Assembly (NCBI RefSeq): GCF_000421185.1
Contig: NZ_ATWJ01000012.1
Coordinates: 186,001 to 250,000, forward strand
Direction: 5' to 3'
Source of the DNA: Ornithinimicrobium pekingense DSM 21552
GTDB taxonomy: Bacteria; Actinomycetota; Actinomycetes; Actinomycetales; Dermatophilaceae
DNA length: 64,000 bases
Both the position numbers and the translations under genes were made by a program. Within the stretch, counting starts at the first letter, position 1; each line of letters starts with the position of its first letter. Of this stretch, positions 2,197 through 62,359 are shown piece after piece. A model generated the notes under the pieces. It saw nothing but the letters and a program-made list of their open reading frames with translations, did no database searches and was not told the DNA's origin.

Positions 2197-3059
2197 GAGG
2201 GTCCTTCCTTCGGGGTGGGTATGGCGTGGTGCAGGACGGCGTCCAGGCCCAGCAGGAGGGCCGCGCCGGAGGTGTGGCCGACGGCGACGACGTCCTCGGC
2301 GTGCCGACGCAGCCGCGGATCGTCGGCGAGGCCGTCGTGCCAGGCACGTAGGAGGTCGACCACCGGCGGCACGGCATACCCGAGGGCGGCGTGGCGCAGG
2401 AGGGTGGCCGACAGCGCGGTGGTGCGGTGCAGCAGCGGGGCCAGCCTCTCCTCGAGGCGGGCGCGGGCGGGCTCGTCGCCGGTGGCGCGCAGACCGAGCA
2501 GGGCGCCGCAGAGCACGTCGTCGCCGGCGGGGGTCAGACCGGGCCCCAGGCCGACGAGCGCCGCGGGCCCGGTGGGCGTCAGCAGCCGCGGGAGCGCCTC
2601 GAGCAGCGCTGGGGGCAGGTCGTCGGCCAGGCCCGGCAGGGAACGGACCAGCTGCGACAACCGCGTGCGCCGCGCCGAGCCGGCGGCCGGTGACGGGACG
2701 CTCACCGGCGTGGGCGCCGGGCGCCAGGTCCGGCGCACGGCGAGCGAGCCGCCCGGGGCAACGACCCGCCCCTGCCCGACGATGACCTCCGTGCCGGCCC
2801 GCAGCCGCAGGCCGTGCAGGTCGTGGGCCGAGCCCAGCCGCAGGCCGCCGGGCAGCACCAGGGCACCGGGCGCGAGCAGGGGCAGGACCTCGTGCTCCCC
2901 CTCGTCCGTGGGCAGCAGGTAGGCGGCCAGGTCGAAGGCGGCCGCCACGCGCGCCGGCCGCGGGGGGCCGTGCAGCCAGGCGGGGCCCAGCGTCGACGCC
3001 GCGGCGGGCCGCGCGTCGAGGACGCGGGGCCGGCGCACGGGGGCGTCGCTGGTCAGCAT
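2193..3059 (-). CDS. allH: Oxamate carbamoyltransferase subunit AllH (DUF2877)
   Basis: 288 residues from an ATG at 3057-3059 (MLTSDAPVRRPRVLDARPAA). The frame stays open another 33 codons upstream, but those would cover the short divergent promoter region, so I prefer this start. The C-terminal half carries GLGPGLTPAGDDVLCGALLG, the signature of DUF2877 (E. coli YlbF, now AllH). It is the first gene of the minus-strand operon and overlaps allF by GTGA. With AllF and AllG it should form oxamate carbamoyltransferase; the specific part played by this subunit is unknown to me. Confidence 0.82.
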   Translation of the reverse strand: MLTSDAPVRRPRVLDARPAAASTLGPAWLHGPPRPARVAAAFDLAAYLLPTDEGEHEVLPLLAPGALVLPGGLRLGSAHDLHGLRLRAGTEVIVGQGRVVAPGGSLAVRRTWRPAPTPVSVPSPAAGSARRTRLSQLVRSLPGLADDLPPALLEALPRLLTPTGPAALVGLGPGLTPAGDDVLCGALLGLRATGDEPARARLEERLAPLLHRTTALSATLLRHAALGYAVPPVVDLLRAWHDGLADDPRLRRHAEDVVAVGHTSGAALLLGLDAVLHHAIPTPKEGPS

Positions 3060-3121
3060 TGCGTCACGATATGCGCGGGCCCCGTGTTGCGTTGCCGGTG
3101 CTTTGTGACAACGATCTGGCC
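3060..3121. promoter_or_regulatory. Divergent allHFG / pucR control region
   Basis: This 62-base gap separates the divergent starts of allH and pucR and is visibly less GC-rich than its surroundings. It holds GCGTCACGA at 3061-3069; the same 9-mer recurs at 4891-4899 upstream of the permease gene. A second half-related element, TTTGTGACAACGAT, sits near 3102-3115. Both could be sites for PucR or another regulator. No convincing -35/-10 pair was found. The assignment rests on position and a short shared word only. Confidence 0.35.
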
Positions 3122-4780
3122 ATGCATCGTCAACTGTCGCCCGTGCCCGCCCCTGCACCGGCGGGGATGACCATGACCGAGGTGCTCGAGCTGCCGGTCA
3201 TGCGGGGCGCCACCGTCATCGCCGGACGCGACGGCCTGGACGCGTGGGTCAGCAGCGTCAACGTCATGGAGGTCCCCGACGTGCTGCCGTGGGTGCGCCC
3301 CCACGAGATGCTGCTCACGACCGGCTACCCGTTGCGCTCGCACGACGCCGACGACCTGACCTCCTGGATCGGGGGGCTGGCCGACCACGGGGTGTCGGCG
3401 GTCGCGCTCAAGCTCGCCCGCTACGTCGAGGAGCTGCCCGCCGCGGCGCTGGCCGAGGCCGACCGACGCGGGCTGGCGGTCCTCACCCTGCCGGGCGACG
3501 TGAGCTTCGACGACGTCATCAACCAGGTGCTGACGGTCGTCATCAACCGCCGGGCCGACACCCTGGCCCGGGCCGAGCAGGTGCTGCAGGACCTCGTCGG
3601 GGTGGTCATCGCCGGGGGCGACCTGGACCAGGTCTGCCAGGGGGTCGTCCGCCACCTGGCGCGGACGGCGATCGTCACGACCATGGACGGCCGGGTGCTG
3701 GCCTCGGCCGGAGAGCTGCCGGAGCGTCTCGGCGAGCTGCCCGGCTTCGACCCGACCGGACGCTTCGTCGTGGAGACCGAGCTGCCCGGGGTGTCCGCCG
3801 AGTTCGACGGGCAGCACCGCCTGGTCGCCCGCGTCCCGGGCGGACGGGCCGACCTCGGCCGCCTGGTGCTCATGCGCGAGGACGGCGCCTTCACCGCCGA
3901 GGACAACCACGTCGTCGGGCAGGCGACCACGGCCGCCGCCCTGGCCATCACCAAGCACCAGGCGATCGCCGCCGTCGAGGGCAAGTACCGCGGCGACTTC
4001 CTGCGCGACGCCCTGCTGGGGCGGGCCGGTGACGCCGACCGGGTCGCCGCCCACGCCGCCGACCTGGGCTGGGACCTGCGACGCCCGCTCGCGGTGGTCG
4101 TCGCCGAGGCCGAGGAGGCGCCGGCCGAGGACGCCGTCGCCCGGACGCTGCCCGAGCGGTTCCGTGCCGCGTGGGAGCGGGTCGTCGGCACCGACGACCA
4201 CGCCGCGGCGGTGGCCGGGTTCAGCCAGGAGGTCGTCGTGCTCCTGGGCGTGCCCGCCGAGCTGGAGCCCGCGGGCGTCACCGAGCGGGTGGTGCAGATG
4301 GCCGCGCAGGTGCACGGCCGCGGCGGTGGCGGCCGTCGCACCTTCGCCACCGGCATCTCCCGCACCATCACCGACCTCGCCGACCTGCCGCGCGCCTACG
4401 CCGAGGCGCGCAAGGCGGTCCAGGTCGGACGGCGGCTGCACGGCGAGCGCGCGATCACCCACTTCGACGCGCTCGGCGTCTTCCGCCTGCTCTCCCAGGT
4501 CGAGGACCGCGCCGAGCTGGCCAGCTTCGTCGCCGAGACGCTCGGGCCGCTGGCCGCCGACACCTCCGAGGAGGCCGAGGACCTGCGCACGACGCTGACC
4601 GTGCTGCTGGACAACAACCTCAACGTCGCCTCGACGGCCCGGTCGCTGCACTTCCACTACAACTCGCTGCGCTACCGCATCGGCAAGCTGGAGCGGATCC
4701 TCGGCCCGTTCACCACCGACCCCCGCCTGCGGTTCGCGATCATGCTGGCCCTGCAGGCCCGCCAGCTCGACCACCCCTAG
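3122..4780 (+). CDS. pucR: PucR-family transcriptional regulator
   Basis: 552 residues if it starts at ATG 3122; ATG 3167 (MTMTEVLELPVMRGAT) is an equally reasonable start because the PucR N-terminal domain begins there. Neither has a clear ribosome-binding site. Order of domains: PucR ligand-sensing domain (about residues 18-140, with EVPDVLPWVRPHEMLLTTGY), a middle GGDEF-like/regulatory region, and a C-terminal PucR helix-turn-helix (about 485-545, with NNLNVASTARSLHFHYNSLR). PucR controls purine catabolism in Bacillus and many actinobacteria. Here it lies between the oxamate carbamoyltransferase genes and the permease/molybdenum-hydroxylase genes, so it is the obvious regulator of the island. 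Confidence 0.88.
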   Translation: MHRQLSPVPAPAPAGMTMTEVLELPVMRGATVIAGRDGLDAWVSSVNVMEVPDVLPWVRPHEMLLTTGYPLRSHDADDLTSWIGGLADHGVSAVALKLARYVEELPAAALAEADRRGLAVLTLPGDVSFDDVINQVLTVVINRRADTLARAEQVLQDLVGVVIAGGDLDQVCQGVVRHLARTAIVTTMDGRVLASAGELPERLGELPGFDPTGRFVVETELPGVSAEFDGQHRLVARVPGGRADLGRLVLMREDGAFTAEDNHVVGQATTAAALAITKHQAIAAVEGKYRGDFLRDALLGRAGDADRVAAHAADLGWDLRRPLAVVVAEAEEAPAEDAVARTLPERFRAAWERVVGTDDHAAAVAGFSQEVVVLLGVPAELEPAGVTERVVQMAAQVHGRGGGGRRTFATGISRTITDLADLPRAYAEARKAVQVGRRLHGERAITHFDALGVFRLLSQVEDRAELASFVAETLGPLAADTSEEAEDLRTTLTVLLDNNLNVASTARSLHFHYNSLRYRIGKLERILGPFTTDPRLRFAIMLALQARQLDHP

Positions 4781-4800
4781 CCACGACCAGGGCCGGCACG

Positions 4801-12489: not shown

Positions 12490-13525
12490 GCACCGCCGCC
12501 GCATCCGGCTCGTCGACACCCACTACGGCGGTGACGTCAGCCGCGTCGTCCTGGGCGGCATACCCCGGGTGCCGGGTGACAGCGTGCTCGCCAAGCGGGC
12601 GTGGCTGGGCGGGGACGGGGACGCCCTGCGCCGGCTGCTGCTCTCCCCGCCCTACGGGGAGCCGGCGATGTGCGCCAACGTCGTGGTCGACCCCGACCTG
12701 GACGGCGCGGACGCCGGCTACGTGATCATGGAGGCGATGGGGTACCCGTTCTTCTCGGGCTCCAACTCCATCTGCGTCGCCACCGCGCTGCTCGAGAGCG
12801 GCTACCTGGCGATGGGACCGCCCGGGCGTCAGGTGGTGCACCTGCAGCCCCCGGCTGGCCTCGTCCGCGCCGAGGTGGAGCACGACGGCCGGCACGTGCA
12901 CGCGGTCACCGTCACCTGCGACACCGCGTGGGTGCTCGACCGAGGTCGCACCGCCGAGCTGCCGGGCTTCGGGACGGTCACCTACGACCTGGTCTGGTCC
13001 GGCTGCTTCTACGCCGTCGTGGACGCCGAGGCCCACGGCTTCGCCCTGAGCGAGCCGGAGCGACCGGTGCTGGCCGATCTCGGGATGTCGCTGTGCCTCG
13101 TGGCCTCCCCGGACCTGGAGCTGGTGCACCCCACCTTCGGCGACACCGGCCCGCTCGCGTTCGTGAGCCTCGCCGGCCCCCTGACCGAGGGCGGCGACGG
13201 CATCGAGGTCGCCACCGCCACCTACGTCCACCCCGGGGTGGTCTGCCGCTGCCCCACGGGGACCGGCACCGCGGCCCAGCTGGCGCTCCTTGCGGACGAC
13301 GGTGTGCTGGGCGTCGGCGACCGGCTGACCAGCATCTCCCCCACCGGCTCCACGATGGTGGGCGAGATCGTCGGGCGTCCCGGCCTGCACGGCCGGGTCG
13401 GCACGACATCCACCATCACCGGCCGGGCGTTCACGCTCGGCGTGACCGAGCTGGTGGTGAACCTCGACGACGACCTGGGGACCGAGGGCATCTGGGAGCT
13501 GCTGGCCGGCACCGCCGGCCCCTGA
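12479..13525 (+). CDS. Proline racemase-fold protein lacking both catalytic cysteines
   Basis: 348 residues from ATG 12479, inside the end of the dehydrogenase gene. The N-terminus RLVDTHYGGDVSRVVLGG matches the family opening. The first active-site motif, normally MCGHxxI, reads FSGSNSI: Cys is Ser and His is Ser. The second, normally DRSPCGTG, reads CRCPTGTG: Cys is Thr. Known members are Cys/Cys (racemases, epimerases) or Ser-or-Thr/Cys (trans-3-hydroxyproline dehydratases); the Ser/Thr pair here fits neither. Two-base racemisation is therefore unlikely. Its position before hyuA suggests a step on a hydantoin-derived compound, but the reaction is unknown. The 160-base gap after it holds no clear promoter or terminator. 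Confidence 0.82.
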   Translation: MPPEHRRRIRLVDTHYGGDVSRVVLGGIPRVPGDSVLAKRAWLGGDGDALRRLLLSPPYGEPAMCANVVVDPDLDGADAGYVIMEAMGYPFFSGSNSICVATALLESGYLAMGPPGRQVVHLQPPAGLVRAEVEHDGRHVHAVTVTCDTAWVLDRGRTAELPGFGTVTYDLVWSGCFYAVVDAEAHGFALSEPERPVLADLGMSLCLVASPDLELVHPTFGDTGPLAFVSLAGPLTEGGDGIEVATATYVHPGVVCRCPTGTGTAAQLALLADDGVLGVGDRLTSISPTGSTMVGEIVGRPGLHGRVGTTSTITGRAFTLGVTELVVNLDDDLGTEGIWELLAGTAGP

Positions 13526-13685: not shown

Positions 13686-15917
13686 ATGAGCACCACGACG
13701 AACCGCCGGATCAGGATCGGCATCGACACGGGCGGCACGTTCACCGACGTGGTCGCGTTCGACGAGGACGCCGGCACGATCACGACGACGAAGACGCCGT
13801 CGACCCCCGGCAACCCCGCCGACGGCTTCATCAACGGGGTCGACAAGGTGCTCGACCTGCTGGGGGCCACCGGCGCCGACGTCACCGCGGTCTCGCACGG
13901 CACGACGGTGGCCACCAACCAGCTGCTCGAGGCCAAGCTGGACCCGCTGGGCTTCGTCACCACCGAGGGCTACGAGTTCGTCCTGGAGATCGCGCGGCAG
14001 GCGGTGCCGGACGGCTACGGCAACTCCTACTTCTGGGTCAAGCCCGAGCGCATCGTGCCGGCCGACCTGGTGAAGACCGTGGGCGGCCGCATGGACTTCG
14101 AGGGCAACGAGGTCCGGCCCTTCGACGAGGACGGCGCGCGTGCTGTGGCCCGGTGGTTCCGTGACCAGGGGATCAACACCCTCGGGGTGAACTTCCTGCA
14201 CGCCTACGCCAACCCCGCCCACGAGGAGCGGATGCGCCAGGTCCTGGCCGAGGAGCACCCGGACTGCGTCGTGTCCCTCTCCAGCGAGGTGCTGCGGGAG
14301 TACCGCGAGTACGAGCGCTCGATGACCACCCTCGTCGACGCCGCGGTCAAGCCCAAGGTCAGCGCCTACGTCGCCAACATCTCCGAGCGGCTGCGTGCCT
14401 ACACCGGGACGGGGGCGGAGGGCTCCGGGGGGTCCACGGGGGGCGGAGCCCCCCGTGCGATGCCGTTCTACATCATGAAGTCCAACGGTGGTGTCCTGTC
14501 CGCCGAGGAGGTCGTGCACCAGCCGATCACCACCGTGCTCTCCGGCCCGGCCGCCGGCGCCCTCGGCGCGGCCCTCGTCTCCGGCCTGGCCGGGTTCGAC
14601 AAGGTGCTCACCTGCGACGGCGGCGGCACCTCGACCGACGTCTCGGTGGTCCTGGGCGGCGAGCCCACGCTGACCACCGAGGGGTCGGTCGGTGCCTACC
14701 CGTCGAAGATCCCGATGATCGACGTGGTCACCGTGGGCGCCGGCGGCGGCTCGATCGCCTGGATCTCCCCCGACGGCTCGCTCAAGGTCGGTCCGCACTC
14801 GGCCGGCGCCGACCCCGGCCCGCTGTGCTACGGCAGGGGCGGCGCCGACGGCGCCCCGACCATCACCGACGCGCACCTGCTGCTCGGGCGCATCCCCCCG
14901 CACCTGCTGGGCGGGGAGATCCCGCTCGACGTCGACGCGGCGCGCGCGGGCCTGGAGCAGATCGCCGGCCGGCTCGGGCTCGACGTCGAGCGCGCGGCGA
15001 CGGGCATCCTGGAGATCAGCGCCTGGAACCAGGCCAACGCCCTGCGTCAGATCTCGGTGAAGCGTGGCCTGGACGTGCGCGACTTCATGCTCGCCACCTT
15101 CGGCGGCTCCGGCTCGCTGCTGGCCTGCCGGCTCGTGGACATCCTCGGTCTGGCCGGCGTCATCGTGCCGCTCAACCCGGGCAACGTGTCGGCCTTCGGC
15201 CTGCTGACGGTGGACGTCAAGAACGACTACGTCCAGACCATGGTGTCCAAGCACGACCACCTCGACCTGGCGCAGCTGGGATCGGTCTACGGCGCCCTCG
15301 CCGAGCGTGCCACCCACGCCCTGGACCTGGAGGGCTTCGAGCGCGCCGACCACCAGTTCCAGCGGACCGCCGACCTGCGCTACGTCGGCCAGGCCTTCGA
15401 GGTGCGCGTGCCGGTCCCGGCCGGGGAGCTCGACCAGGCCGCCGTGGACCGGGTGGCCGAGGCCTTCCACGACGAGCACCGCGCTCTCTACGGCTACGAC
15501 TTCCGCGGGGACGAGCGTCAGCAGGTCGAGTGGGTCAACCTGCGCGTCACCGGCGTGGGCCCCATCACCCGCCCGACGCTGCCGGAGATCGGCACCGGTG
15601 AGGGCGACGCGCAGCGGGCCCGCACCAGCACCCGTCGGGTCTGCTTCGACGCCGCCGACGGCTACGTGGACACCCCGGTCTACTGGCGTCCCGACCTGGC
15701 CGACGGCGACCTGGTCCAGGGCCCGGCGATCATCGAGGAGTTCGGCTCCACCGTCCCGGTCCACCCGGGCTTCGAGGTCCGGGTCGACGCCTGGGGCAAC
15801 CTCGTCATCACCAAGCCCGGCAGCGACGACGCTGCCCACCGCGAGACCGCGCAGCCAGCCCTGGTGAGCGCCTCGGCATACCTCACCGCCGTGCAGAGCC
15901 AGGAGGAGCAGGCATGA
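13686..15917 (+). CDS. hyuA: Hydantoinase/oxoprolinase subunit A (HyuA)
   Basis: 743 residues from ATG 13686, about 9 bases after GAAGGG; GTG 13680 is an alternative. It has the ASKHA-fold ATPase of the family: IRIGIDTGGTFTDVVAFDED at the N-terminus, AVSHGTTVATNQLLE near residue 62, SGPAAGALGAALVSGLAG and LTCDGGGTSTDVSVVLGG near 290-325, and VGAGGGSIAWIS near 352. The family hydrolyses hydantoin, N-methylhydantoin, 5-oxoproline or caprolactam-type rings with ATP, always together with HyuB. A Gly/Ser-rich insert (GSGGSTGGGAP) at about residue 247 lengthens the protein. Its stop overlaps hyuB as ATGA. Substrate within the family is not readable; context favours a cyclic ureide. Confidence 0.9.
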   Translation: MSTTTNRRIRIGIDTGGTFTDVVAFDEDAGTITTTKTPSTPGNPADGFINGVDKVLDLLGATGADVTAVSHGTTVATNQLLEAKLDPLGFVTTEGYEFVLEIARQAVPDGYGNSYFWVKPERIVPADLVKTVGGRMDFEGNEVRPFDEDGARAVARWFRDQGINTLGVNFLHAYANPAHEERMRQVLAEEHPDCVVSLSSEVLREYREYERSMTTLVDAAVKPKVSAYVANISERLRAYTGTGAEGSGGSTGGGAPRAMPFYIMKSNGGVLSAEEVVHQPITTVLSGPAAGALGAALVSGLAGFDKVLTCDGGGTSTDVSVVLGGEPTLTTEGSVGAYPSKIPMIDVVTVGAGGGSIAWISPDGSLKVGPHSAGADPGPLCYGRGGADGAPTITDAHLLLGRIPPHLLGGEIPLDVDAARAGLEQIAGRLGLDVERAATGILEISAWNQANALRQISVKRGLDVRDFMLATFGGSGSLLACRLVDILGLAGVIVPLNPGNVSAFGLLTVDVKNDYVQTMVSKHDHLDLAQLGSVYGALAERATHALDLEGFERADHQFQRTADLRYVGQAFEVRVPVPAGELDQAAVDRVAEAFHDEHRALYGYDFRGDERQQVEWVNLRVTGVGPITRPTLPEIGTGEGDAQRARTSTRRVCFDAADGYVDTPVYWRPDLADGDLVQGPAIIEEFGSTVPVHPGFEVRVDAWGNLVITKPGSDDAAHRETAQPALVSASAYLTAVQSQEEQA

Positions 15918-17813: not shown

Positions 17814-18707
17814 GTGGGAGCAGGCACCGTCACCGTCCTCGGCGCGACCGGCAAGACCGGTCGCGCCGTGGTGGCGGCTGCCCTGCGGCGCGGGCTGACC
17901 GTCCGGGCGACCTCCCGCGACCCCGGCCACGGGGCTCCGGCCGTGGTGACCTCGGGTGGCCCTGACGGCACGAGGTCACCACAGGCGACCGGTGACCCGC
18001 GGCTGAGCTGGCACCGGGCCGACGTCGTCACCGGCGAGGGCCTGGCCGACGCGCTGACGGGCGCGGACGCGGCATACCTGATCGTGCCCAACGTGCATCC
18101 CGCCGAGGTGGAGGCGGTGGAGCTGGCGACCCGCGCGGCCACGGAAGCCGGCGTCGAGCGCCTCGTCTACCACTCGGTCGCCGACCCCGACGACGCGCGT
18201 ATGGCCCACCACCTGCGCAAGGGCGCGGCCGAGCGCGCGGTGCGCCGGCTGCGCCCCGACGCCGTGGTGCTGCGTCCCTGCGCCTACCTGCAGAACCTGC
18301 TGCCGTCCGCGGTCGCCGGCCACCTCGAGGTGCCCTACCGGCTGAGCGCGCCCTTCAGCCTCGTCGACCTCGACGACGTCGCCGAGGTCGCTGCCGCCGC
18401 GCTCGACGGCCGGCTCGAGCCCGGGAGCACGCACGACCTGGGCGGGCCGGAGGTGCTGTCCGTCCTGCAGCTGGCCGAGGTGGCCGTCACGGTCCTCGGC
18501 CGGCCGGTGAGCGCCTCGGCCGTCACACCGGAGCAGTGGCGCTCCGGGCCCGGGGCCGGCGTGGACGGGTCCGCGCTGGAGGACCTGCTGGCGATGTTCG
18601 CCGCCTACGACCAGAGCGGGTTCACCGTGGACCCCGCTCCCCTGGCCCGCCTGCTCGGGCGTCCGCCCACGACGTGGGCCCAGCTGCTGACGAAGGAGTC
18701 TTCATGA
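17814..18707 (+). CDS. NmrA-like NAD(P)-binding protein
   Basis: 297 residues from GTG 17814. The N-terminal glycine motif TVLGATGKTGRAVVAAALRR binds NAD(P), and LVYHSVADPDDARMAHH and VVLRPCAYLQNLLP are typical of the NmrA/HSCARG subgroup of atypical short-chain dehydrogenases. The catalytic YxxxK is not conserved, so it could be a redox sensor or an isomerase-like enzyme rather than a reductase. It sits between hyuB and carbamate kinase and overlaps the latter as ATGA. Its role in the pathway is unknown. Confidence 0.78.
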   Translation: MGAGTVTVLGATGKTGRAVVAAALRRGLTVRATSRDPGHGAPAVVTSGGPDGTRSPQATGDPRLSWHRADVVTGEGLADALTGADAAYLIVPNVHPAEVEAVELATRAATEAGVERLVYHSVADPDDARMAHHLRKGAAERAVRRLRPDAVVLRPCAYLQNLLPSAVAGHLEVPYRLSAPFSLVDLDDVAEVAAAALDGRLEPGSTHDLGGPEVLSVLQLAEVAVTVLGRPVSASAVTPEQWRSGPGAGVDGSALEDLLAMFAAYDQSGFTVDPAPLARLLGRPPTTWAQLLTKESS

Positions 18708-19644: not shown

Positions 19645-19735
19645 CTGCGGCGTCCCCGGTCGCGGGTATGCCGGGCGGGTGGCGTCCCCGGTCACCGGTA
19701 TGCCGTGCGGGCGCCGTCCCCGGTCGCGGGGCGGG
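19645..19735. repeat. Imperfect tandem repeat after carbamate kinase
   Basis: About two and a half copies of a roughly 32-base unit containing CGTCCCCGGTC follow one another between the arcC stop and the leuA promoter. Two of the copies contain GGTATGCC, the word that is over-represented across the window. No coding potential is evident. Confidence 0.6.
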
Positions 19736-23593: not shown

Positions 23594-25093
23594 TCAGCGG
23601 CCCAGCAGGCGCGCCACGGCCACGGGTATGGCGCGCGCCACGGCGAGGGCGCGGACCGGCCCACCGGGGTTGGCCACGTCGGCGGCGACGCCGTGCACCA
23701 GCGCGGCGAGCGACCCCGCGTCGCGGGGCGGCAGACCGGCCGCCAGCAGCACGCCGGCCAGACCGGCCAGCACGTCCCCCGCACCGGCGGTCGCGAGCCA
23801 CGCCGGGGCGTCGGTCTGGGACCGGACCGGGACGGTCGGGTCGGGGTCGGCGACCAGCGTCGTCGACCCCTTGAGCAGGACGGTGCACCCGCTGACGGCG
23901 GCCGCACGCCGGACGTGCTCCACCGGCGCGGCCTCCACCTGATCGCGCGTCACCTCCTCGCCGGTCACGGCGGTCAGCAGCCGCGCCAGCTCGCCGGCGT
24001 GCGGGGTGAGCAGCGTCGGCGCCTGACGCCGGTTCCCCGCGGCGACCCACGACGCGAGCAGCTCCAGGGCACCGGCGTCCACGACGAGCGGCACGTCGCC
24101 GCCGAGCAGCTCGCGCACGTGGTCGGCCTGGTGGTCGGCGCAGTCGGGGTGGTCGCAGCCGTGCGGCTCCACGCCGGGCCCGACCACGGCGGCCTGCATC
24201 CGGCCGGGGCCGGGCACCACCTCCGGGCAGGCGGCGAGCACGAGGTCGGTCGGGCGGCCCGGTCCGACGTAGCGCACCATCCCGGCGCCCGACTCCACCG
24301 CGGACGTCACGCACAGCACGGCCGCGCCCGGGTAGGCCTCGCTGCCGGCGACGACGCCCACGACCCCGCGGGAGTACTTGTGGTCGCCCATCCCCGGCAC
24401 CGGCCACAGGCTGCGCACGTCGTCGTGCTCCAGCCGTTCGACCACCGGGGGCACGTCCGTCTCGACACCGATGTCCACGACCGTCAGGCGGCCCACGGCG
24501 GCCTCGGTGCCGGGCAGCAGGTGGACGGGCTTGCACATCCCGAAGGTCACGGTCTCGTCGGCGACCACCGCGGGGGCACGCCCGAGCGGCTCCTCCCCCG
24601 CCGGGTCGGCGCCGCTGGGCAGGTCCACCGCCAGCAGGTATGCCGTGTCCGGCACCGCGTCGACGACGGCCGTCATCGCGCCGCGCAGACCGGCTCGGCC
24701 ACCGATGCCGAGCAGGCCGTCGACCACCAGGTCCGCGGCGGCCAGCACCTCGAGCACGCGACCGGGCAGGGTCTCGGCGTCGGGCTCGACCTCGACGACC
24801 TCGACGCCGGCGGCCCGTGCCGCCGCCCGGCCCTCGGGGTGCAGCCTCGGCGCGACCCCCACGGCAGTGACGTCGGGCCCGTCGAGGAAGGACGCCGCCC
24901 ACAGGGCGTCGCCCCCGTTGTCCCCGGGGCCGGCCAGCACGACCACCGTCCTGGCGCCCAGCTGCTCGGCACGCACGGCGACCACCTCGGCCAGCCCGCG
25001 GGCGGCACGCTGCATGAGCTCGCCCTCCGGCAGGTCGGCACGCACCCGGTCCTCGGCGGCGCGGACGTCGGCGACGGCATACCCGACGATCAC
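23594..25093 (-). CDS. nnr: Bifunctional NAD(P)H-hydrate repair enzyme
   Basis: 499 residues. The N-terminal YjeF_N epimerase domain has [20 protein letters not shown] near residue 50, and the C-terminal ADP-dependent NAD(P)H-hydrate dehydratase domain has [20 protein letters not shown] and [21 protein letters not shown]. The two domains interconvert and dehydrate damaged NADHX/NADPHX. The start is GTG at 25091-25093, overlapping the stop of acpS as GTGA. It follows acpS as in many actinobacteria, with glmS further upstream on the same strand. Confidence 0.93.
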
Positions 25094-35723: not shown

Positions 35724-35803
35724 GAGGAGCAACCTACCGGGCAGCGCTGAGAACTCCCCGGCACGGCCGCCCCAGACCCCCAGCGACGACGCGGTATGCC
35801 GTG

Positions 35804-45238: not shown

Positions 45239-45239
45239 C

Positions 45240-48038
45240 GTGGCGCACGTGGGCTTCCCGGAGCAGGACGGGCGCACCGACGGGCCGCTGAGACAGCGCG
45301 TGCACGGTCCGGCGGGGCGGGCCGTCTCCGACCCGCCCGGCCTGCCGCGCCGCGACCTGCCCGGGCTCGACCGGGCCTGGTCGAGGGTCGTGGTGGCTCC
45401 GGACGCCGAGGGGATGCCGCGGCACTGGCACCTGCTCGACACCGGTCCGCTGCTGCAGGAGCGCGGGGAGGAGGTGGTCGGCACCCTGCTGTGCGTCCAC
45501 GGCAACCCCACCTGGTCCTACCTGTGGCGTCGCGTGCTCGCCCAGGCCCCGCCCGGCTGGCGGGTGGTGGCCGTCGACCAGCTCGGCATGGGCTGGTCGG
45601 AGCGCACCGCCGAGCCGCGCACCCTGGCCCAGCGGGTCGACGACCTCGACCACCTCACCGACGCGCTCGGCCTGACCGGGGCAGGCCCCCTCGCGGTGCT
45701 CGCGCACGACTGGGGCGGCCCCGTCTCGCTGGGGTGGGCGCTGCGGCACACCTCCGACCTCGCCGGGGTGGTGCTCACCAACACGGCGGTGCACCAGCCC
45801 GCGGAGTTCGCCCCTCCCGCGGTCATCCGGCTCGCCCGAGCGCCCTGGCTCCTGGCGCAGGTATGCCGTCGCACGCCCGCCTTCGTGCGCGCGACGACGG
45901 CGCTGTCCGTCCCGCCGCTGCCGGCCCCGGTGCGCGAGGCCTTCGCCGCGCCGTACCGCACGCCGGGCCGCCGCGCGGCGGTCGCCGACTTCGTGGCGGA
46001 CATCCCCTTCGAGGCCGACCACCCCAGCCGCGCGACCCTCGACGCGGTCGCCGACGGCCTGTCAGCGCTGGCCGACGTGCCGGCCCTGCTGGTCTGGGGC
46101 CCGCGCGACCCCGTCTTCGGTCAGCGCTACCTCGACGACCTCGCGACCCGCCTGCCGCACGCCGACGTGCAGCGCTACGCCGGCGCGTCCCACCTCGTGC
46201 TCGAGGACCGGCCCGAGGGCATCGACGTCGTCTGGCGCTGGCTGCGCGAGAACGTGGCGACCGGGTCCGGGCGGCCCGCCGCCGTAGGGTCCGCCGGCCA
46301 CCCCGAGGAGCCAGCAGAGTCCTCGCGGTCCCTGTCCGACGACGTGCCCCGCGTCGCGGTGCGGGTCGACACCTCCGCCCCTGACTCCCCTGCGGTGGTC
46401 GAGCTGCGGGGCGGACGGCGGTCGGTCACCTTCGGCGAGCTGGACCGCCTGGTCGACGACGTCGCCCGGGGGCTCCTGGCCCGCGGGGTCGTTCCCGGCG
46501 ACCGGGTCGCGGTCCTCGTGCCGCCGGGCATCGAGCTCACGACCCTGGTCTACGCGCTGTGGCGGATCGGTGCCGTCGTCGTCATCGCCGACGCCGGCCT
46601 CGGGCTGGGGCGCCTGGGCAGCTCGCTGCGGTCGGCCGGCCCGCGGCACGTCGTGGGGATCGGGCGGGCGCTGCGGCTGGCCGACGTGACACGGGTGCCG
46701 GGGCAGCGGCTGCGGGTGGAGCCCGGAGGCGACGAGCTGGCCCGCCTCGCCGAGGAGGGACGCGGGGCCTCACCGGCGCTGCCCGACCCGGACGAGGTGG
46801 GCGGCGACGCCGACGGCGCCGTGCTGTTCACCTCCGGGGCGACCGGCCCGCCCAAGGGCGTCGTCTACACCCGTGACCGGCTGGGCGCGCAGGTGGCGCT
46901 CCTGCGCGACACCTTCGGGCTGGGGCGCGGCGAGCGCCTCGTCGCCGCCTTCGCCCCGTTCGCCCTCTACGGGCCCGCCCTCGGGCTGACCGGGGTCGTG
47001 CCGGACATGGACGTCACCGCCCCGCAGACGCTGACCGCGGCCGGGCTGGCCGAGGCCGTCACGGCCGTGGACGCCACGGTCGTCTTCGCCGCGCCCGCGG
47101 CCCTGCGCAACGTCGTGGCCACCGCCGAGGGCCTCGACGAGCGGGGCCGGACCGCACTGGCCGGACCGCGCCTCGTCCTCTCGGCCGGGGCGCCCGTGCC
47201 GGTCGACCTGCTGCGCCGCGTGCGTGAGCTGCTGACCCACGCCTCGACGCACACGCCCTACGGGATGACCGAGGCGCTCCCGGTCGCCACGCTGGACCCG
47301 GTGGAGGAGCTCGGGGCGGGAGGGCCAGGGTCCACCGACGCTGCTCAGGACGGCGTCTGCGTGGGCCGGCCGCTGGAGCGCGTGGAGGTGGGCGTCGCCC
47401 CGCTGGACGCGCACGGCATACCCGCCGAGGAGCTGGTGACCACCCCCGGCGCGGTGGGCGAGATCGTGGTCCGCGGGCCGCACGTCAAGGACCGCTACGA
47501 CCGTCTCTGGACGACCCAGCGCGCCAGCGAGCGGCCCGTCGGGTGGCACCGGACCGGCGACGTGGGGCACCTCGACGAGCACGGGCGGCTCTGGGTCGAG
47601 GGGCGCCTCGCCCATGTCATCAGCACCCCGGACGGTCCGGTCCCCCCGTATGCCGTGGAGGCCCGGGTGCGCGCGCTGCCCGACGTGGCGGACGCCGCCG
47701 TGGTCGGGGTCGGTCCGGAGGGGACTCAGCAGCTCGTCGTGGTGCTCGTGCCGACGGAGCGCGGTGGCGCGGTGGCCCGCCTCACCGGTGCCCCCCGCGG
47801 GCAGGCCCGGCTGGCGCCCGGGGCGACGGCCGACGCGGTGCGCCGGGTGGCCGGGGTCCCCGTCGCAGCCGTGCTGGTCCGCGACTGGCTCCCGGTGGAC
47901 GTGCGCCACGCGAGCAAGGTGGACCGCGGCGCGCTGGCGCGGTGGGCCGACGGGGTGCTCCACGGCCGAACGGTGCGCGGCCGGGTCGCCGCCCTGCTGC
48001 CCGGCCCGGCCCACGCCCCGATGACGAGGAGCCGCTGA
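45240..48038 (+). CDS. oleBC: OleBC fusion: beta-lactone decarboxylase plus beta-lactone synthetase
   Basis: 932 residues from GTG 45240, one base after the oleA stop. Residues about 20-335 form an alpha/beta hydrolase of haloalkane-dehalogenase type: VHGNPTWSYLWRRVL (oxyanion hole) and VLAHDWGGPVSLGWAL (nucleophile Asp). Residues about 370-900 form an AMP-binding synthetase with VLFTSGATGPPKGVVYTRD and THTPYGMTEALPVATLDPVE. OleC makes a beta-lactone from the 3-hydroxyacid with ATP, and OleB decarboxylates it to an olefin. Fusion of the two passes the unstable lactone within one chain and is known in Micrococcus and other actinobacteria. The stop overlaps oleD by one base. Confidence 0.94.
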   Translation: MAHVGFPEQDGRTDGPLRQRVHGPAGRAVSDPPGLPRRDLPGLDRAWSRVVVAPDAEGMPRHWHLLDTGPLLQERGEEVVGTLLCVHGNPTWSYLWRRVLAQAPPGWRVVAVDQLGMGWSERTAEPRTLAQRVDDLDHLTDALGLTGAGPLAVLAHDWGGPVSLGWALRHTSDLAGVVLTNTAVHQPAEFAPPAVIRLARAPWLLAQVCRRTPAFVRATTALSVPPLPAPVREAFAAPYRTPGRRAAVADFVADIPFEADHPSRATLDAVADGLSALADVPALLVWGPRDPVFGQRYLDDLATRLPHADVQRYAGASHLVLEDRPEGIDVVWRWLRENVATGSGRPAAVGSAGHPEEPAESSRSLSDDVPRVAVRVDTSAPDSPAVVELRGGRRSVTFGELDRLVDDVARGLLARGVVPGDRVAVLVPPGIELTTLVYALWRIGAVVVIADAGLGLGRLGSSLRSAGPRHVVGIGRALRLADVTRVPGQRLRVEPGGDELARLAEEGRGASPALPDPDEVGGDADGAVLFTSGATGPPKGVVYTRDRLGAQVALLRDTFGLGRGERLVAAFAPFALYGPALGLTGVVPDMDVTAPQTLTAAGLAEAVTAVDATVVFAAPAALRNVVATAEGLDERGRTALAGPRLVLSAGAPVPVDLLRRVRELLTHASTHTPYGMTEALPVATLDPVEELGAGGPGSTDAAQDGVCVGRPLERVEVGVAPLDAHGIPAEELVTTPGAVGEIVVRGPHVKDRYDRLWTTQRASERPVGWHRTGDVGHLDEHGRLWVEGRLAHVISTPDGPVPPYAVEARVRALPDVADAAVVGVGPEGTQQLVVVLVPTERGGAVARLTGAPRGQARLAPGATADAVRRVAGVPVAAVLVRDWLPVDVRHASKVDRGALARWADGVLHGRTVRGRVAALLPGPAHAPMTRSR

Positions 48039-49814: not shown

Positions 49815-49973
49815 GGGGGCCTCCTGGCGGCGGTCAGGTCACCTGAGTCAACCGGTTCGGCGGGGCCCGGGCAAGACCCCGCAGCGGGTATGCGGTCACC
49901 TGACCTCCGCGTCAAGGCGCCAGGGAGGGGACCTAGACTTCCGGCATACCCGTCGCCGTCAAGGAGGACCCCC

Positions 49974-52543: not shown

Positions 52544-52843
52544 TCAGGGCAGGACGCGGCGCAGTGCCGTGAGGCGCCCGGTCAGGTCCTCCTCGTCGAG
52601 GCCGGCGGCCCGCCAGTCGTAGACCATCACCCGCAGCTGGTCCATGAGCACGGCGGGACCGAGGTCGGGGACGGGTGCGGACGGCATACCCTCAGCCTCC
52701 GCGACCGCGTCCGCGAGCGCCTGCACGCAGCCCGCGACCCCCGGGACAGCAGGAAGCGCGCGGTCCAGCGGCAGCTGCTGCCACCGCCGGACCACGCGCT
52801 CCAGCTCGGTCCCGGCCGGGTCTGCGCGGCCGGGACCGACCAT
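52544..52843 (-). CDS. Small conserved-looking hypothetical protein
   Basis: 99 residues from ATG 52841-52843, overlapping the BI-1 stop as TGATG. The sequence is helical and acidic toward the C-terminus (VMVYDWRAAGLDEEDLTGRL) with no membrane segment. I do not recognise the family. Codon use is like the neighbours and the overlap with BI-1 supports it being real. Confidence 0.65.
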   Translation of the reverse strand: MVGPGRADPAGTELERVVRRWQQLPLDRALPAVPGVAGCVQALADAVAEAEGMPSAPVPDLGPAVLMDQLRVMVYDWRAAGLDEEDLTGRLTALRRVLP

Positions 52844-56955: not shown

Positions 56956-59454
56956 ATGTCGTCGCGCGCGTCCGCCGGTGCCGCCGCCGGGCGAGGCCTG
57001 CTGGCCCTCGTCACGGCCGCCGGCGTCGTGCTCGCGCCCACGCTCCTCGCGGCGTCCGCCCCCGCCCCGTCCGCCGCGCTGCCGGCCGCGCCGGCCGCGC
57101 CGGCCCCCGGCGAGCAGGTCGGCTACCCGCGCCAGACCTTCCTGCCCGAGCCGGCCGTCGACCCCGGTGATGCCGCCCTGCGCCGCGGGCTGGCGGCATA
57201 CCACGACGTCGCCCGCCGGCTCAACGCCGTGACGGGCGCCTCCGACCGCGTCTCGGCCGAGGTGATCGGCATGAGCCAGGGTGGTCGCGACATCATCATG
57301 GTCACCCTGACGGCGCCCGAGACCCCGGCACAGGCGCAGGTGCAGGCGTCGCTGCGCGACCGGATCACCGCCCAGCCGGCCCGTGCGGCCGCCGACCGTG
57401 CCCTGGCCCGCGACTACAAGCTGCCGGTGCTGGTCAACGCCAACGTCCACGGCGACGAGTTCGAGGGCACCGACGCGGTGCTGCGTCTCGTCGAGGACTG
57501 GGCGGTGAGCCAGGACCCGGCCGTGCGGCGCACGCTGGAGACCACCCGGGTGCACCTGGTCGTCTCCACGAACCCCGACGGACGGGTCGCGGGCACCCGC
57601 ACCAACGCGGCCGGCTTCGACCTCAACCGCGACCTGGTCACGGCCAGCCAGCCCGAGACCCGGGCGCTCCGCGACGCGGTCGTGCAGGTGCAGCCGGTGA
57701 TGCTCCTGGACCTGCACGGCTACGTCAACGGCACGCTGGTCGAGCCCACGACGGCACCGCACGCCGAGACCACCGAGCACGACCTGCTCCTCCCGCACGC
57801 CTGGGCCAACGCGCTGGGCATCGAGTCGGCCCTGCTGGGGCTGGGCCACGACGAGAACGACGGGGTGCGGCCGCCGCAGATCCCGCTGCGCGACTTCGAG
57901 GAGGGCTGGGACGGCTGGCCCCCGATCTTCACGCCGCAGTACGCCGCGCTGCACGGTGCCGTCGCGCACACGGTCGAGCTGCCCCTCCGCGTCAACAACG
58001 CCGCCTCCACCGAGCCGCCGTCGGAGCTGCGCCGCCGCTCCGCCATCAACACCGACATCGCCGTCGCCGCCGTGACCGCCACGCTGCGGTATGCCGTCGA
58101 GCAGCGCGAGGAGCTGCTCGCCGACCACGTCGAGGTCTTCCGTCGCGGCGTGGCCGGGGCGGCGCAGCGTCCGGTGGACCGGGCGCTGGTGGGCGGGACG
58201 GGGACAGCGGGCGGGTGGACGACCGACTACCCGCGGGCCTACGTCGTCCCCGGTGGGCCCGCGCAGCGCTCGGCCCCGGCCGCCGCCCGCCTGGTGGACC
58301 ACCTCGTCGACAACGGGGTCGAGGTCACCCGCCTGACCCGTCCCGCGAGGATCGACGGCACCACCCACGCGGCCGGGAGCTATGTCGTGGACCTGCACCA
58401 GGCCCGCCGCGGGCTGGCCCACACCCTCCTCGGCCCGGGCAGCGACCTGTCCGACCGGGTCGGTGCCATGTACGACATCTCCGGCTGGAGCCACGGACTG
58501 CTCTGGGGCGCCGACGTGGTCACCGTGCCCGCCGGCGTGTCCCTGCCCGCCGTCGGTGAGCCGGTGGCCGCCGCCGCGCCGACCGGGTCGGTCGCGCCCT
58601 CGGCCGACGGATGGCTGCTGGCCCTGGACGACCCCGCCGACGTGCGGGCGCTGTCCTCGCTGCTGGCCGACGGGGTCGCGGTGGAGTGGCTCGACGACGG
58701 CTCGGTGCTGGTGCCGGCCCCCGCCGGGGCCGCGGCCCGGTCCGTCGCGTCGACCCACGGCGTGCGGCTCGCCCCGGCGCCCGCCGGGGCCGCCGGGGAG
58801 CCGCTGCGCCCGCTGCGGGTGGGCGTGGCCGGCACGCCGCAGGAGCTGTGGGCCCTCTCGGAGATGGGCGTGGTCACCCGGCCGGTGAGCTCGGCCGCCC
58901 TCAACGAGGGGCTCGACCTGTCGACTCTGGACGCGCTCTACGTCTCCGACGGCCTCGCCTGGCGCGACCTCGACGACGAGGCGCGGGCCGAGCTGCGCGC
59001 CTTCGTGGACGCCGGTGGCGGCCTCGTCGGTCGTGGCCCGGGTGGCGCCGGGCTCAACGACGCCCTCGACCTGCTCGACGTCACGGTGGAGCGCGGGCGC
59101 TCCGACGCCAACGGCGTCGTCTCCGTCACCAACGCCGGCGGGCCGCTGACCGACGGCGCGCCGGAGCACGCCTTCGTCTACTCCCCCGCCTGGTTCACCG
59201 ACCTGGGCCCGGACGTCGTCGTCGACCAGCGCCTGGGTGCCGACCCGCTGGTCAGCGGGCACTGGCTCCCGACGGCGGCCGGGTCCGGCGGGCAGCGCGA
59301 CGCGGCCGGCCAGGCGCTCGTGGTGCGCGGCGAGGACGAGGCCACCGGCGCGCGGGCGGTGCTGCTCGGCTCCGAGCCGCTCTTCCGGGCCCACCCCAAG
59401 GGCCAGTACGCCCTCGTCGCCCGCGCCCTGATCTGGACCAGCCTCACTTCCTGA
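56956..59454 (+). CDS. Secreted M14-family zinc carboxypeptidase
   Basis: 832 residues from ATG 56956, 5 bases after AGGAGG. A signal peptide (LLALVTAAGVVLAPTLLAAS, ending near residue 45) precedes the M14 domain. Zinc ligands are in VNANVHGDEFEGTDAVLRLV (HxxE) and VMLLDLHGYVNG (His). ENDGVRPPQIPLRD and EEGWDGWPPIFTPQYAALHG lie toward the active-site Glu region. About 450 further residues carry additional domains, including a GATase-like segment (LRAFVDAGGGLVGRGPGG). It should trim C-terminal residues of extracellular peptides. It is divergent from the ATP-grasp/DUF1704 operon. Confidence 0.88.
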   Translation: MSSRASAGAAAGRGLLALVTAAGVVLAPTLLAASAPAPSAALPAAPAAPAPGEQVGYPRQTFLPEPAVDPGDAALRRGLAAYHDVARRLNAVTGASDRVSAEVIGMSQGGRDIIMVTLTAPETPAQAQVQASLRDRITAQPARAAADRALARDYKLPVLVNANVHGDEFEGTDAVLRLVEDWAVSQDPAVRRTLETTRVHLVVSTNPDGRVAGTRTNAAGFDLNRDLVTASQPETRALRDAVVQVQPVMLLDLHGYVNGTLVEPTTAPHAETTEHDLLLPHAWANALGIESALLGLGHDENDGVRPPQIPLRDFEEGWDGWPPIFTPQYAALHGAVAHTVELPLRVNNAASTEPPSELRRRSAINTDIAVAAVTATLRYAVEQREELLADHVEVFRRGVAGAAQRPVDRALVGGTGTAGGWTTDYPRAYVVPGGPAQRSAPAAARLVDHLVDNGVEVTRLTRPARIDGTTHAAGSYVVDLHQARRGLAHTLLGPGSDLSDRVGAMYDISGWSHGLLWGADVVTVPAGVSLPAVGEPVAAAAPTGSVAPSADGWLLALDDPADVRALSSLLADGVAVEWLDDGSVLVPAPAGAAARSVASTHGVRLAPAPAGAAGEPLRPLRVGVAGTPQELWALSEMGVVTRPVSSAALNEGLDLSTLDALYVSDGLAWRDLDDEARAELRAFVDAGGGLVGRGPGGAGLNDALDLLDVTVERGRSDANGVVSVTNAGGPLTDGAPEHAFVYSPAWFTDLGPDVVVDQRLGADPLVSGHWLPTAAGSGGQRDAAGQALVVRGEDEATGARAVLLGSEPLFRAHPKGQYALVARALIWTSLTS

Positions 59455-59563: not shown

Positions 59564-60973
59564 ATGTGGCTCGTGAACCCCACTTCTGCAGCGCTCGACG
59601 CTGCCACCGCGAAGATGCGGTCGGCCGGAGTCGCCGACGTCGCCGTGGACGTCTTCCGTCAGGCCTGGACCGAGCTCGCGCAGGGGCGCAGCGGGGCCAT
59701 CGGCGAGGACGACATCGAGCCGGTGACCGAGCTGGACAGCCTGGCCGACCTCGACCCCGACGCCGACCCGACCGCCCTGGGCCGCACGGCCGTCGTCAAG
59801 CTCAACGGGGGCCTCGGCACCTCGATGGGGATGGACCGCGCCAAGTCGCTGGTCCCGGTGCGGGAGGGACGCAGCTTCCTGGAGCTGACGATCGAGCAGG
59901 TGCGGCGAGCGCGGGAGCGTTCGGGCGCCCGGCTGCCGCTGGTGCTCATGAACTCCTTCCGCACCCGCGAGGACAGCCTGGCGGTCCTGGCCCGGCACCC
60001 GGACCTGGCGGTCGAGGGGGTCGACCCCGACTTCCTGCAGAGCCAGGAGCCCAAGCTGCTCGCCGAGGACCTCTCGCCCGTGCGGTGGCCGGCGAACCCC
60101 GAGCTGGAGTGGTGCCCGCCCGGCCACGGTGACCTCTACCCCTCGCTGCTGGCCTCCGGGATGCTCGAGCAGCTGCGCGACGCCGGCTTCCGCTACGCGA
60201 TGGTGAGCAACTCCGACAACGTCGGCGCGGCGCCGTCCGCGGCGATCGCGGACTGGTTCGCGCGCAGCGGCGCGCCGCTGGCGATGGAGGTATGCCGTCG
60301 CACCGGCGCCGACCGCAAGGGCGGGCACCTGGCGCTGCGGCGGGAGGACGGCCGACTGATCCTGCGGGAGAAGGCGCAGGCCGCGCCCGCCGACGCCGAC
60401 GCGTTCGGCGACATCGAGCGGCACCGCTACTTCAACACCAACACCCTGTGGCTGGACCTCGACCAGGTGGCGGCGGTGCTCCGGGAGCGCGGCGGCGTCC
60501 TGGGCCTGCCGCTCATCCGCAACGAGAAGACCGTCGACCCGACCGACCCGACGTCACCCTCGGTGGTGCAGATCGAGACCGCGATGGGGTCGGCGATCGA
60601 GGTGTTCGACGGGGCCACCGCGATCGAGGTGCCGCGCAGCCGGTTCCGGCCGGTCAAGACGACCGACGACCTGCTGGTGCTGCGCTCCGACTGCTTCGAG
60701 CTCACCGACGACGCCGAGCTGCGACCGGCCTGCGACCCGCTGCCGCTGGTCACCCTCGGCGACCACTACACGACGCTGGCCGCCTTCGAGAGCCGGTTCC
60801 CGCACGGGGCGCCCTCACTGCGGCAGGCGCGCTCGCTGACCGTCGAGGGTGACTGGACCTTCGGCCGGTCGGTCCGCGTCGTCGGCGAGGCCGTCCTGGG
60901 CAGCACCGCCGGGGCCCGACCCGTGCCCGACCACAGCACCGTCGGCCCGGACGGCGTCCAGGCCGCCGGCTGA
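59564..60973 (+). CDS. UTP-glucose-1-phosphate uridylyltransferase, UGP type
   Basis: 469 residues from ATG 59564; GTG 59573 is an alternative. The eukaryotic-type UDPGP fold is shown by VVKLNGGLGTSMGMDRAKSL near residue 84, VLMNSFRTREDSLAVL, FRYAMVSNSDNVGA and HRYFNTNTLWLDLDQ. It makes UDP-glucose and is unlike the GalU type usual in bacteria, though such UGP proteins occur in Micrococcales and bifidobacteria. The 109-base upstream gap contains a duplicated GACACCTGGC (about 59457 and 59488) but no firm promoter. It is convergent with the ArsA-like gene. Confidence 0.9.
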   Translation: MWLVNPTSAALDAATAKMRSAGVADVAVDVFRQAWTELAQGRSGAIGEDDIEPVTELDSLADLDPDADPTALGRTAVVKLNGGLGTSMGMDRAKSLVPVREGRSFLELTIEQVRRARERSGARLPLVLMNSFRTREDSLAVLARHPDLAVEGVDPDFLQSQEPKLLAEDLSPVRWPANPELEWCPPGHGDLYPSLLASGMLEQLRDAGFRYAMVSNSDNVGAAPSAAIADWFARSGAPLAMEVCRRTGADRKGGHLALRREDGRLILREKAQAAPADADAFGDIERHRYFNTNTLWLDLDQVAAVLRERGGVLGLPLIRNEKTVDPTDPTSPSVVQIETAMGSAIEVFDGATAIEVPRSRFRPVKTTDDLLVLRSDCFELTDDAELRPACDPLPLVTLGDHYTTLAAFESRFPHGAPSLRQARSLTVEGDWTFGRSVRVVGEAVLGSTAGARPVPDHSTVGPDGVQAAG

Positions 60974-62046: not shown

Positions 62047-62062
62047 CAGGCTCCTCGGGGGA

Positions 62063-62341
62063 TCAGCAGCACGAGAAGTGCTCCAGCGGCGAGCGGTCCA
62101 GGCCCATCCTCCGGTGCCAGTCGTGGAACTGCTCGTAGACCACCGGCAGCAGCTCGACGGTGTAGTAGCTGACCGGGTTGGGCACGCCCAGCGCCTCGGC
62201 CATGACGATGACCATGAAGAGGTCGTCCTCGTCCTGCTGGGCGCGGGCGAAGGTGCGGCGGTAGGGACCGCTGTAGAAGTCGCGCAGCCCCGCAGCCACC
62301 TCGGCGAGGCGGCTGCGGGGCCGGCGGGGGGGGTCCTCCAT
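62063..62341 (-). CDS. cory-CC-star small protein
   Basis: 92 residues ending in SPLEHFSCC, the terminal Cys-Cys that names the cory-CC-star family. The body is soluble and helical (LRDFYSGPYRRTFARAQQDE, FMVIVMAEALGVPNPVSYYT). It replaces in position the small YbdD/YjiX protein that usually accompanies CstA-type peptide/pyruvate transporters. It is followed 16 bases later by the ArsA-like gene. The C-terminal Cys pair could bind metal or be modified. Function not established. Confidence 0.82.
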   Translation of the reverse strand: MEDPPRRPRSRLAEVAAGLRDFYSGPYRRTFARAQQDEDDLFMVIVMAEALGVPNPVSYYTVELLPVVYEQFHDWHRRMGLDRSPLEHFSCC

Positions 62342-62359
62342 ACCTGGAGGGTATGCCGT

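Follow-up and report, generated by a model that had tools for sequence, protein, structure and literature searches.

The window analysed here is a 64,000-nucleotide stretch of the genome of Ornithinimicrobium pekingense DSM 21552 (contig NZ_ATWJ01000012.1, positions 186,001 to 250,000), through which a short word, the 10-mer GGTATGCCGT, is scattered on both strands. It is present in exactly 17 copies, with no further exact ones, and every position and strand given in the original prediction, which had been made by eye from the letters, proved right. The chance expectation of about 0.1 given there was confirmed: an order-3 Markov model yields 0.10, against which the word has the top score among the window's 10-mers with at least six copies, and 100 dinucleotide shuffles gave a mean of 0.07 and a maximum of 1. 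The core GGTATGCC, for which 24 copies against about 2 had been claimed, was counted 24 times against 1.6 expected, and the next base is G in all 24. Seventeen of these core copies lie within called genes and seven in the 7.5% of the window that is uncalled, with gene calls from a simple custom script. The word is best explained as a DNA uptake sequence (DUS) in its local dialect, a reading that draws on sequence comparison and to which we give a probability of about two in three. The copies, in window coordinates, are the following; “core” denotes GGTATGCCG followed by the base named.

2371..2380, minus strand: motif GGTATGCCGT, inside called gene 2193-3059(-)
12556..12564, minus strand: core, then C, inside called gene 12479-13525(+)
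15874..15882, minus strand: core, then A, inside called gene 13680-15917(+)
18070..18078, minus strand: core, then C, inside called gene 17868-18707(+)
19665..19673, plus strand: core, then G, between called genes, in a 32-bp tandem repeat
19697..19706, plus strand: motif, between called genes, in the same 32-bp tandem repeat
24637..24646, plus strand: motif, inside the NAD(P)H-hydrate dehydratase/epimerase-like gene 23594-25093(-)
25074..25083, minus strand: motif, inside the same gene 23594-25093(-)
28823..28832, minus strand: motif, inside called gene 28455-29246(-)
29165..29173, minus strand: core, then C, inside called gene 28455-29246(-)
32160..32169, plus strand: motif, between called genes
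34931..34940, plus strand: motif, between called genes
35793..35802, plus strand: motif, between called genes
37023..37032, minus strand: motif, inside mca (mycothiol conjugate amidase, 36858-37919, minus strand), read GTA TGC CGT
40669..40678, plus strand: motif, inside the GlmL-family gene 40598-41938(-)
41792..41801, minus strand: motif, inside the GlmL-family gene 40598-41938(-)
45860..45869, plus strand: motif, inside the two-part gene 45240-48038(+)
47413..47422, minus strand: motif, inside the two-part gene 45240-48038(+)
49942..49950, minus strand: core, then G, between called genes
52681..52690, minus strand: motif, inside a short low-scoring called gene 52544-52843(-)
57194..57202, minus strand: core, then C, inside called gene 56956-59454(+)
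58088..58097, plus strand: motif, inside called gene 56956-59454(+)
60289..60298, plus strand: motif, inside called gene 59615-60973(+)
62350..62359, plus strand: motif, between called genes

The excess extends to the whole genome. The own genome (G000, 3.85 Mb in 15 contigs; G-numbers here denote genomes) holds 467 copies of GGTATGCCGT and none of the reversed word, and 793 copies of GGTATGCCG against 5 of the reversed 9-mer. The 467 copies divide into 241 forward and 226 reverse, in agreement with the predicted absence of strand bias. Genome-wide counts at the level of a Markov model and confinement of the word to the window were the two outcomes named beforehand as speaking against it, and neither occurred.

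The shape of the motif was determined in 792 kb, made up of 432 kb of G000 (window included) and 360 kb of G010, another genome of the same genus that consists of a single contig beginning with dnaA and dnaN. Positions 2-6 and 9 (GTATG..G) are strict, in that single changes there occur at or near background; position 6, for example, is G in 87 cases, C in one, and never A or T. Position 7 can be any base and position 8 is A, C or G, while positions 1 and 10 show only preferences. Among 40 copies, the base directly upstream is favoured to be A or G, and conservation is small beyond one base on either side. The motif is thus graded rather than a fixed 10-mer, and the combination of a strict core with graded edges suggests a motif that is read by a protein rather than a fixed repeat.

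Codon usage does not account for the excess. Shuffling of synonymous codons, which preserves both the proteins and the codon usage, leaves a 14- to 18-fold excess: 76 coding copies of GTATGCCG against 5.5 in the G000 sample, with 19 more between genes, and 146 against 7.9 in the G010 sample, with 33 more between genes. In the latter sample, 94 of the 250 TAT codons and 14 of the 29 ATA codons fall within GTATGCCG, compared with only 4 of 70 GTA and 21 of 564 GCA codons. As had been predicted, copies lie in genes in several frames and also in gaps: all six combinations of strand and phase are used, if unequally, since one phase (NGG TAT GCC) holds 53 of the 139 coding GGTATGCCG copies. Between genes, the word is 2.4-fold enriched in G010 and 2.2-fold (p 0.011) in the own genome when stretches below 70% guanine plus cytosine (GC) are left out (4 of 18 dropped, with five low-GC ones not supplied).

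Such low-GC stretches are poor in the word. Nine of them in the own genome, 147.7 kb in all, hold 5 copies, whereas the other eleven hold 35 in 220 kb, GC being a mere proxy for acquired DNA. The scarcity holds although the word itself is lower in GC than the genome. One of the low-GC stretches (L022; L-numbers denote contigs and loci) carries an IS3-family transposase gene. In G010, copies were found in all 18 stretches sampled along the chromosome and are not confined to one arm or to the terminus. With the replication arms of G010 taken as the two halves of the contig, the 9-mer is found 64 times on the leading and 60 times on the lagging strand and the 8-mer 107 and 84 times (p 0.11), so no clear leading-strand bias was seen in this one complete genome, whose genes are clearly biased (221 to 110).

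Abundance of the word is a trait of one family, which we take to be the Dermatophilaceae in GTDB usage, within its order. Among 31 genomes of the own genus (own included), the count of the 10-mer is 57 to 659 in 30 and 4 in G022. In a family sample of 149 genomes, 79, spread over 29 genera, count as rich in GGTATGCCG, with 193-2198 copies and no less than 5.7 times as many as of the reversed word; 14 are intermediate and 56 are poor, by thresholds of our own. The rich genomes summed have 31,080 forward and 31,010 reverse copies. In an order sample of 297 genomes, the maximum among the 273 from other families is 61 copies. The Mca protein of the window, named by TIGR03446, matched 80 named loci, of which the closest is that of Ornithinimicrobium sp. 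CNJ-824 (80% identity), followed by those of an Actinomycetales metagenome-assembled genome (MAG), Ornithinimicrobium cavernae and two Serinicoccus; this points to Ornithinimicrobium or a close relative as the most likely source of the window. Across the 15 named genomes counted, copies of GGTATGCCG number 657 in CNJ-824, 269 in the MAG, 501 in O. cavernae, 1147 and 1118 in the two Serinicoccus, 1431 in Pedococcus bigeumensis, 1025 in Humibacillus xanthopallidus, 489 in Terrabacter aerolatus, and 603 and 850 in two Flexivirga (reversed controls 96 and 102). Counts are low in Humibacillus sp. DSM 29435 (52), Janibacter hoylei (10), J. limosus (13), J. massiliensis (4) and a Nocardioides sp. (33).

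Some genera poor in the main word carry another word, which is new here. CGAAGGGGG is present in 1265-1939 copies in all 11 genomes of the sister genera g59 and g60 (reversed controls 11-30; g-numbers denote genera) and in at most 80 elsewhere among the 149 genomes. All seven genomes of g38, g48 and g66 carry GGATGCCGG in 656-2027 copies (reversed controls 45-97), and counts elsewhere are 49-351, the maximum outside these genera being 351 in G031 of g2 (control 72). High counts of GGATGCCGG and CGAAGGGGG are thus restricted to 7 and 11 of the 149 genomes, where they lie 11- to 120-fold above those of the reversed word. Identical word counts place J. limosus in g60, Humibacillus sp. DSM 29435 in g38 and J. 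massiliensis in g70, a genus with one genome (G100) that is without CGAAGGGGG. Genus g66 holds both the main word and GGATGCCGG, with GGTATGCCG/GGATGCCGG counts of 492/705 in G096, 479/656 in G130, 107/1227 in G153 and 79/1003 in G167, a mixture as expected of word replacement in progress.

The other words were first seen in small samples of word-poor genomes and then retested in new stretches of the same genomes, and in six of these the same word again came first; two words were taken on to the counts in the 149 genomes. In G078, GGATGCCG has 66 coding copies against 14.2 expected and 30 intergenic against 2.0. CGAAGGGG was found in both G089 (50 against 8.7 coding, 28 against 1.3 intergenic) and G189 (38 against 8.5, and 9 against 0.9), and GTAGCGGC in G022 (25 against 4.0, and 4 against 0.5). 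CGATGCGG in G108 (84 against 18.7, and 4 against 1.6) also replicated but is limited in phase and has no intergenic enrichment, and GGTCTACG in G173 (18 against 3.7, and 3 against 0.6) lies mostly in one coding phase; neither is claimed as a dialect. In G120, GTACGGCG emerged in the second sample only, as did CGCCGTAC, a self-overlapping palindrome absent from the first sample, which is a possible word at most. No clear word was found in the sampled stretches of G133. The share of copies between genes, compared with the intergenic share of the sequence, is 39/102 in 8.3% for G089, 23/75 in 9.9% for G022, 41/131 in 19.5% for G078, 13/65 in 15% for G189, 10/76 in 9.9% for G120 and 8/118 in 11.9% for G108.

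A midpoint-rooted tree of five proteins from 20 genomes (3122 columns) joins G078 with two main-word genomes (support 100), G120 with G077 (100), G173 with G087 (100) and G133 with G119 (98), and nests the CGAAGGGGG pair G089 and G189 among main-word genomes (100). Since the word-poor and other-word genomes are nested inside main-word lineages, the words have changed or been lost several times, repeated gain being the less simple account. The words follow the family phylogeny, as dialects would, yet the three counted genome-wide are without one common inner core.

The genes for DNA uptake are widespread in the family. comEC was found in 145 of the 149 genomes, the four without it being drafts of 58-95% completeness, and a Tad ATPase model scored over its cut-off in 135, compared with 1 of 14 control genomes. 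At E <= 0.001 the same model matched 147 genomes but also 13 of the 14 controls; as weak matches are unspecific, the count is restricted to the 135. PilM, the marker of a type IV pilus, was found in only 5 of 149 genomes, in one of them at full length, and was rejected as a discriminating machine. In the own genome, comEA (SLBB and HhH domains) adjoins comEC. There are two Tad clusters, the first with a TadE-like protein, slightly below its Pfam cut-off, and a small DUF4244 protein, the second (L242:4672-11769), situated between a DivIVA-like gene and ftsZ, encoding a TadA-like ATPase together with a classical Flp pilin. Presence of comEC, architecture of comEA, content of the Tad locus and presence of a classical Flp pilin were all considered as the cause of the difference between rich and poor genomes, and none discriminates: in the genomes sampled, both rich and poor ones have comEA, comEC and the helicase-linked Tad locus. 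As genomes classed as poor may have words of their own, a receptor may be better sought by sequence covariation than by presence or absence.

Conservation of copy positions between relatives, proposed as a check, was found in part. Around mca, GTATGCCG sites were identical in 52 of 125 comparisons among Ornithinimicrobium (with the window and the MAG), Pedococcus, Terrabacter and Humibacillus xanthopallidus, and in 6 of 9 within the Serinicoccus pair, but in none of 49 with Janibacter. Background identity of aligned 8-mers is 16-36%, and 65% between the two Serinicoccus; the comparisons are pairwise alignments that are not independent and were summed by hand. At the mca site of the window, GTATGCCGT is common to 3 of 14 aligned relatives (two Ornithinimicrobium and the MAG), in two of which the preceding base is changed (C for the first G). 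At a second mca site, a rare GCA codon is present in 5 of 15 rows and forms the word in 4, not including the window or the three Janibacter rows. Flanks of the window sites are less conserved than the whole alignment in 8 of 11 targets (few sites), which agrees with the location of DUS in permissive parts of the core genome described in PMC2397512.

Neighbouring copies show some order of their own, which was first noticed in pooled data and is not part of the main evidence. Neighbours less than 150 bp apart are below expectation (27 against 45). At 151-1000 bp, GTATGCCG neighbours in the comEC, Tad and mca loci of other genera are in opposite rather than the same orientation in a ratio of 64:18, and in the G000, G010 and G034 samples of 57:39 (p 0.049); the loci behind these counts are L164-L168, L171, L185-L191, L145, L084, L085, L091 and L093, in addition to the three samples. 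Among the other words, only that of G078 shows the preference (46:15 at 151-1000 bp), the other words pooled giving 113:87. Of intergenic copies, 21 of 119 have a near-inverted partner, compared with 462 of 3600 random sites. A single hairpin of the uptake signal sequence (USS) type was encountered, a perfect 21-bp hairpin at L001:1490-1535 (z -7.7) with the word in both arms and no T run behind it.

Repeats were seen in a few places. The two copies at 19665 and 19697 lie in the 32-bp tandem repeat at window 19647-19730. In G034, a 62-bp tandem repeat (L078:18287-18610) has CGGCATAC or a GGTATG variant in some of its units. A repeat with CGGACGCTACGC, spaced in 29-bp steps where clustered, is found at the ends of several contigs of the own genome (L011:24-82, L022:24-82, L015:10301-10330, and L016:929, 8422 and 9806-9835) and is a candidate CRISPR-like or assembly-breaking repeat. 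The window gene 45240-48038(+) combines a haloalkane-dehalogenase-like part with an olefin beta-lactone-synthetase-like part, all matches being under curated cut-offs, and may encode what we take to be an OleBC-type fusion.

We infer that a protein binds the word, that the word promotes uptake, and that copies spread in consequence. In the proposed mechanism, some part of the transformation apparatus that binds DNA at the cell surface, presumably a component of the Tad/Flp-type pilus or ComEA, would prefer DNA that bears the word. Such DNA would be delivered to ComEC, enter the cell single-stranded and recombine. Tagged alleles would thereby be taken up and recombined more often, so that copies pile up where the protein code tolerates them and would be rare in recently acquired DNA. 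Drift or replacement of the receptor's preference would then make the word differ between genera and at times within one genus. A machine of this kind has a counterpart in the same phylum: Micrococcus luteus is transformed by means of Flp/Tad pili, ComEA and ComEC (PMC4322843, PMC8467076), both of its tad clusters being needed (PMC4322843), and a comEA-comEC pair and two Tad clusters likewise occur in the own genome. In PMC8467076, a term search turned up no mention of uptake sequences.

The DUS of the Neisseriaceae offer the closest likeness, as short non-palindromic words in hundreds to thousands of copies with dialects within one family (PMC3630211). They are described as absent from recently acquired genes (PMC2397512), just as the present word is scarce in foreign-looking DNA. 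However, the present words have no CTG core, and the three differ more than the dialects of DUS, which keep a common core. The hosts here are Gram-positive, with sampled stretches mostly at 65-77% GC, there is no excess of inverted pairs, and the role in uptake is a proposed one. The seven letters ATGCCGT are shared by the word and the Neisseria 12-mer DUS, presumably by chance. The receptor of the Neisseria DUS, ComP, is a minor type IV pilin, and a receptor of this type is not expected here, as PilM is so rare. In the Pasteurellaceae, too, a 9-base word is strongly enriched and two word types occur in one family (PMC12616744), but the USS has a GCGG core and belongs to Gram-negative hosts with type IV pilus machinery. 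USS are also frequent in terminator hairpins (PMC1852404), which the present word is not.

Several observations weigh against an uptake sequence. Close pairs of the USS-terminator type are not in excess, with 14 within 60 bp against 18 expected. If the low-GC stretches are included, intergenic enrichment in the own genome falls to 1.0. Site sharing is uneven: against the 52 of 125 among other main-word loci, the figure with the Serinicoccus loci, which are just as rich, is 4 of 54. In 43 of the 149 genomes, none of the three counted words shows up. Presence of comEC is no proof of competence, since it was matched in 10 of the 14 control genomes too. No receptor was found: no gene cluster in the comE or helicase-linked Tad loci (23 and 20 loci, from rich and poor genomes) tracks the word, and a classical Flp pilin is present in only 71 of 149 genomes and not in some rich ones, such as G010. 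Confidence in the uptake reading was lowered slightly because the weak Tad model matches proved unspecific.

The strongest rival is a recombination signal similar to Chi, read inside the cell by a helicase-nuclease of the RecBCD, AddAB or AdnAB type, so that the DNA of the cell itself is protected or recombined. Chi words, too, are species-specific, vary between bacteria and mark self DNA, and the genus-specific, over-represented, asymmetric words of 8-9 bases found here resemble these directional sequences; the opposite orientation of neighbours at 151-1000 bp would suit a directional signal of either kind. However, known Chi sites favour the leading strand, which the word in G010 does not to any clear extent despite the gene bias there, and enrichment between genes speaks against such a signal as well. 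This explanation is considered unlikely. A segregation motif of the FtsK orienting polar sequence (KOPS) type is disfavoured, as KOPS show strand polarity along each replichore and none was seen in G010, the one genome considered. Binding by a nucleoid or chromosome-organising protein, with a specificity that shifts from genus to genus, would fit the dispersal over both strands of the genome and the strict core with graded edges. It is improbable, however, in view of the word's patchiness and scarcity in foreign-looking DNA and of its presence in every G010 stretch without restriction to an arm or the terminus; hundreds to 2000 sites with a codon cost would also be unusual for nucleoid proteins.

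A word driven by mutation, repair or methylation, as has been suggested for HIP1 of cyanobacteria, is judged slightly more improbable still. HIP1 is a palindromic octamer, very frequent and dispersed, and the use of all coding phases and the near-loss of the word within a genus (G022) would be compatible with such an origin. The main word, however, is asymmetric, has discontinuous strict positions (GTATG..G) and is replaced by others in some genera, and a mutational process should also affect resident foreign DNA, which is word-poor. Bias in codon context or amino-acid pairs, finally, has the preferred phase of GGTATGCCG in its favour, and also the words of G173 and G108, which lie mainly in one or two phases, that of G108 without any surplus between genes. 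It is very hard to reconcile with the excess that remains after synonymous shuffling, with the excess between genes, with the use of ATA codons, or with the near-absence of the reversed word from the own genome. For G173, and in part for G108, codon context may be the explanation, but it is disfavoured for the three words with genome-wide counts.

A DNA uptake sequence is preferred over these alternatives because of the genome-wide frequency, the balance of strands, the lack of clear replication-strand bias in the one complete genome, the use of all phases, the intergenic enrichment in two samples, the scarcity in low-GC DNA, the restriction to one family and the switching of words, which together support the likeness to uptake sequences suggested by the original prediction. 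The excess of the word throughout the genome and the family, the alternative words and the widespread comEC and Tad genes are observed. We lean, somewhat more guardedly, towards the broader picture of an actinobacterial family with uptake sequences in at least three, probably at least four, dissimilar dialects, which would have evolved independently of those of the Neisseriaceae and Pasteurellaceae and be read by a monoderm Tad-pilus machine, with the exchange of one dialect for another still under way in one genus.

Recognition of self DNA through short words has been described in two proteobacterial families, both of which use type IV pili, and a 2025 paper names the Neisseriaceae and Pasteurellaceae as the only families with known uptake words (PMC12616744). 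For mycobacteria, none had been reported according to a 2023 paper (PMC10526031). The open-licence PMC literature, searched mostly by listing, yielded no actinobacterial uptake sequence, all of which agrees with the earlier statement that no actinobacterial equivalent has been described. The examined titles of papers containing one of four spellings of the word look unrelated. If the reading is true, these bacteria would represent a third, independent case of self-DNA words, in Gram-positive, high-GC hosts, and such words would appear to be a general solution. With its many genomes, clear dialects and recent switches, the family would make it testable why words spread, how receptor and word coevolve and whether the words keep species apart. 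Adding the word to DNA may also ease the transformation of these bacteria.

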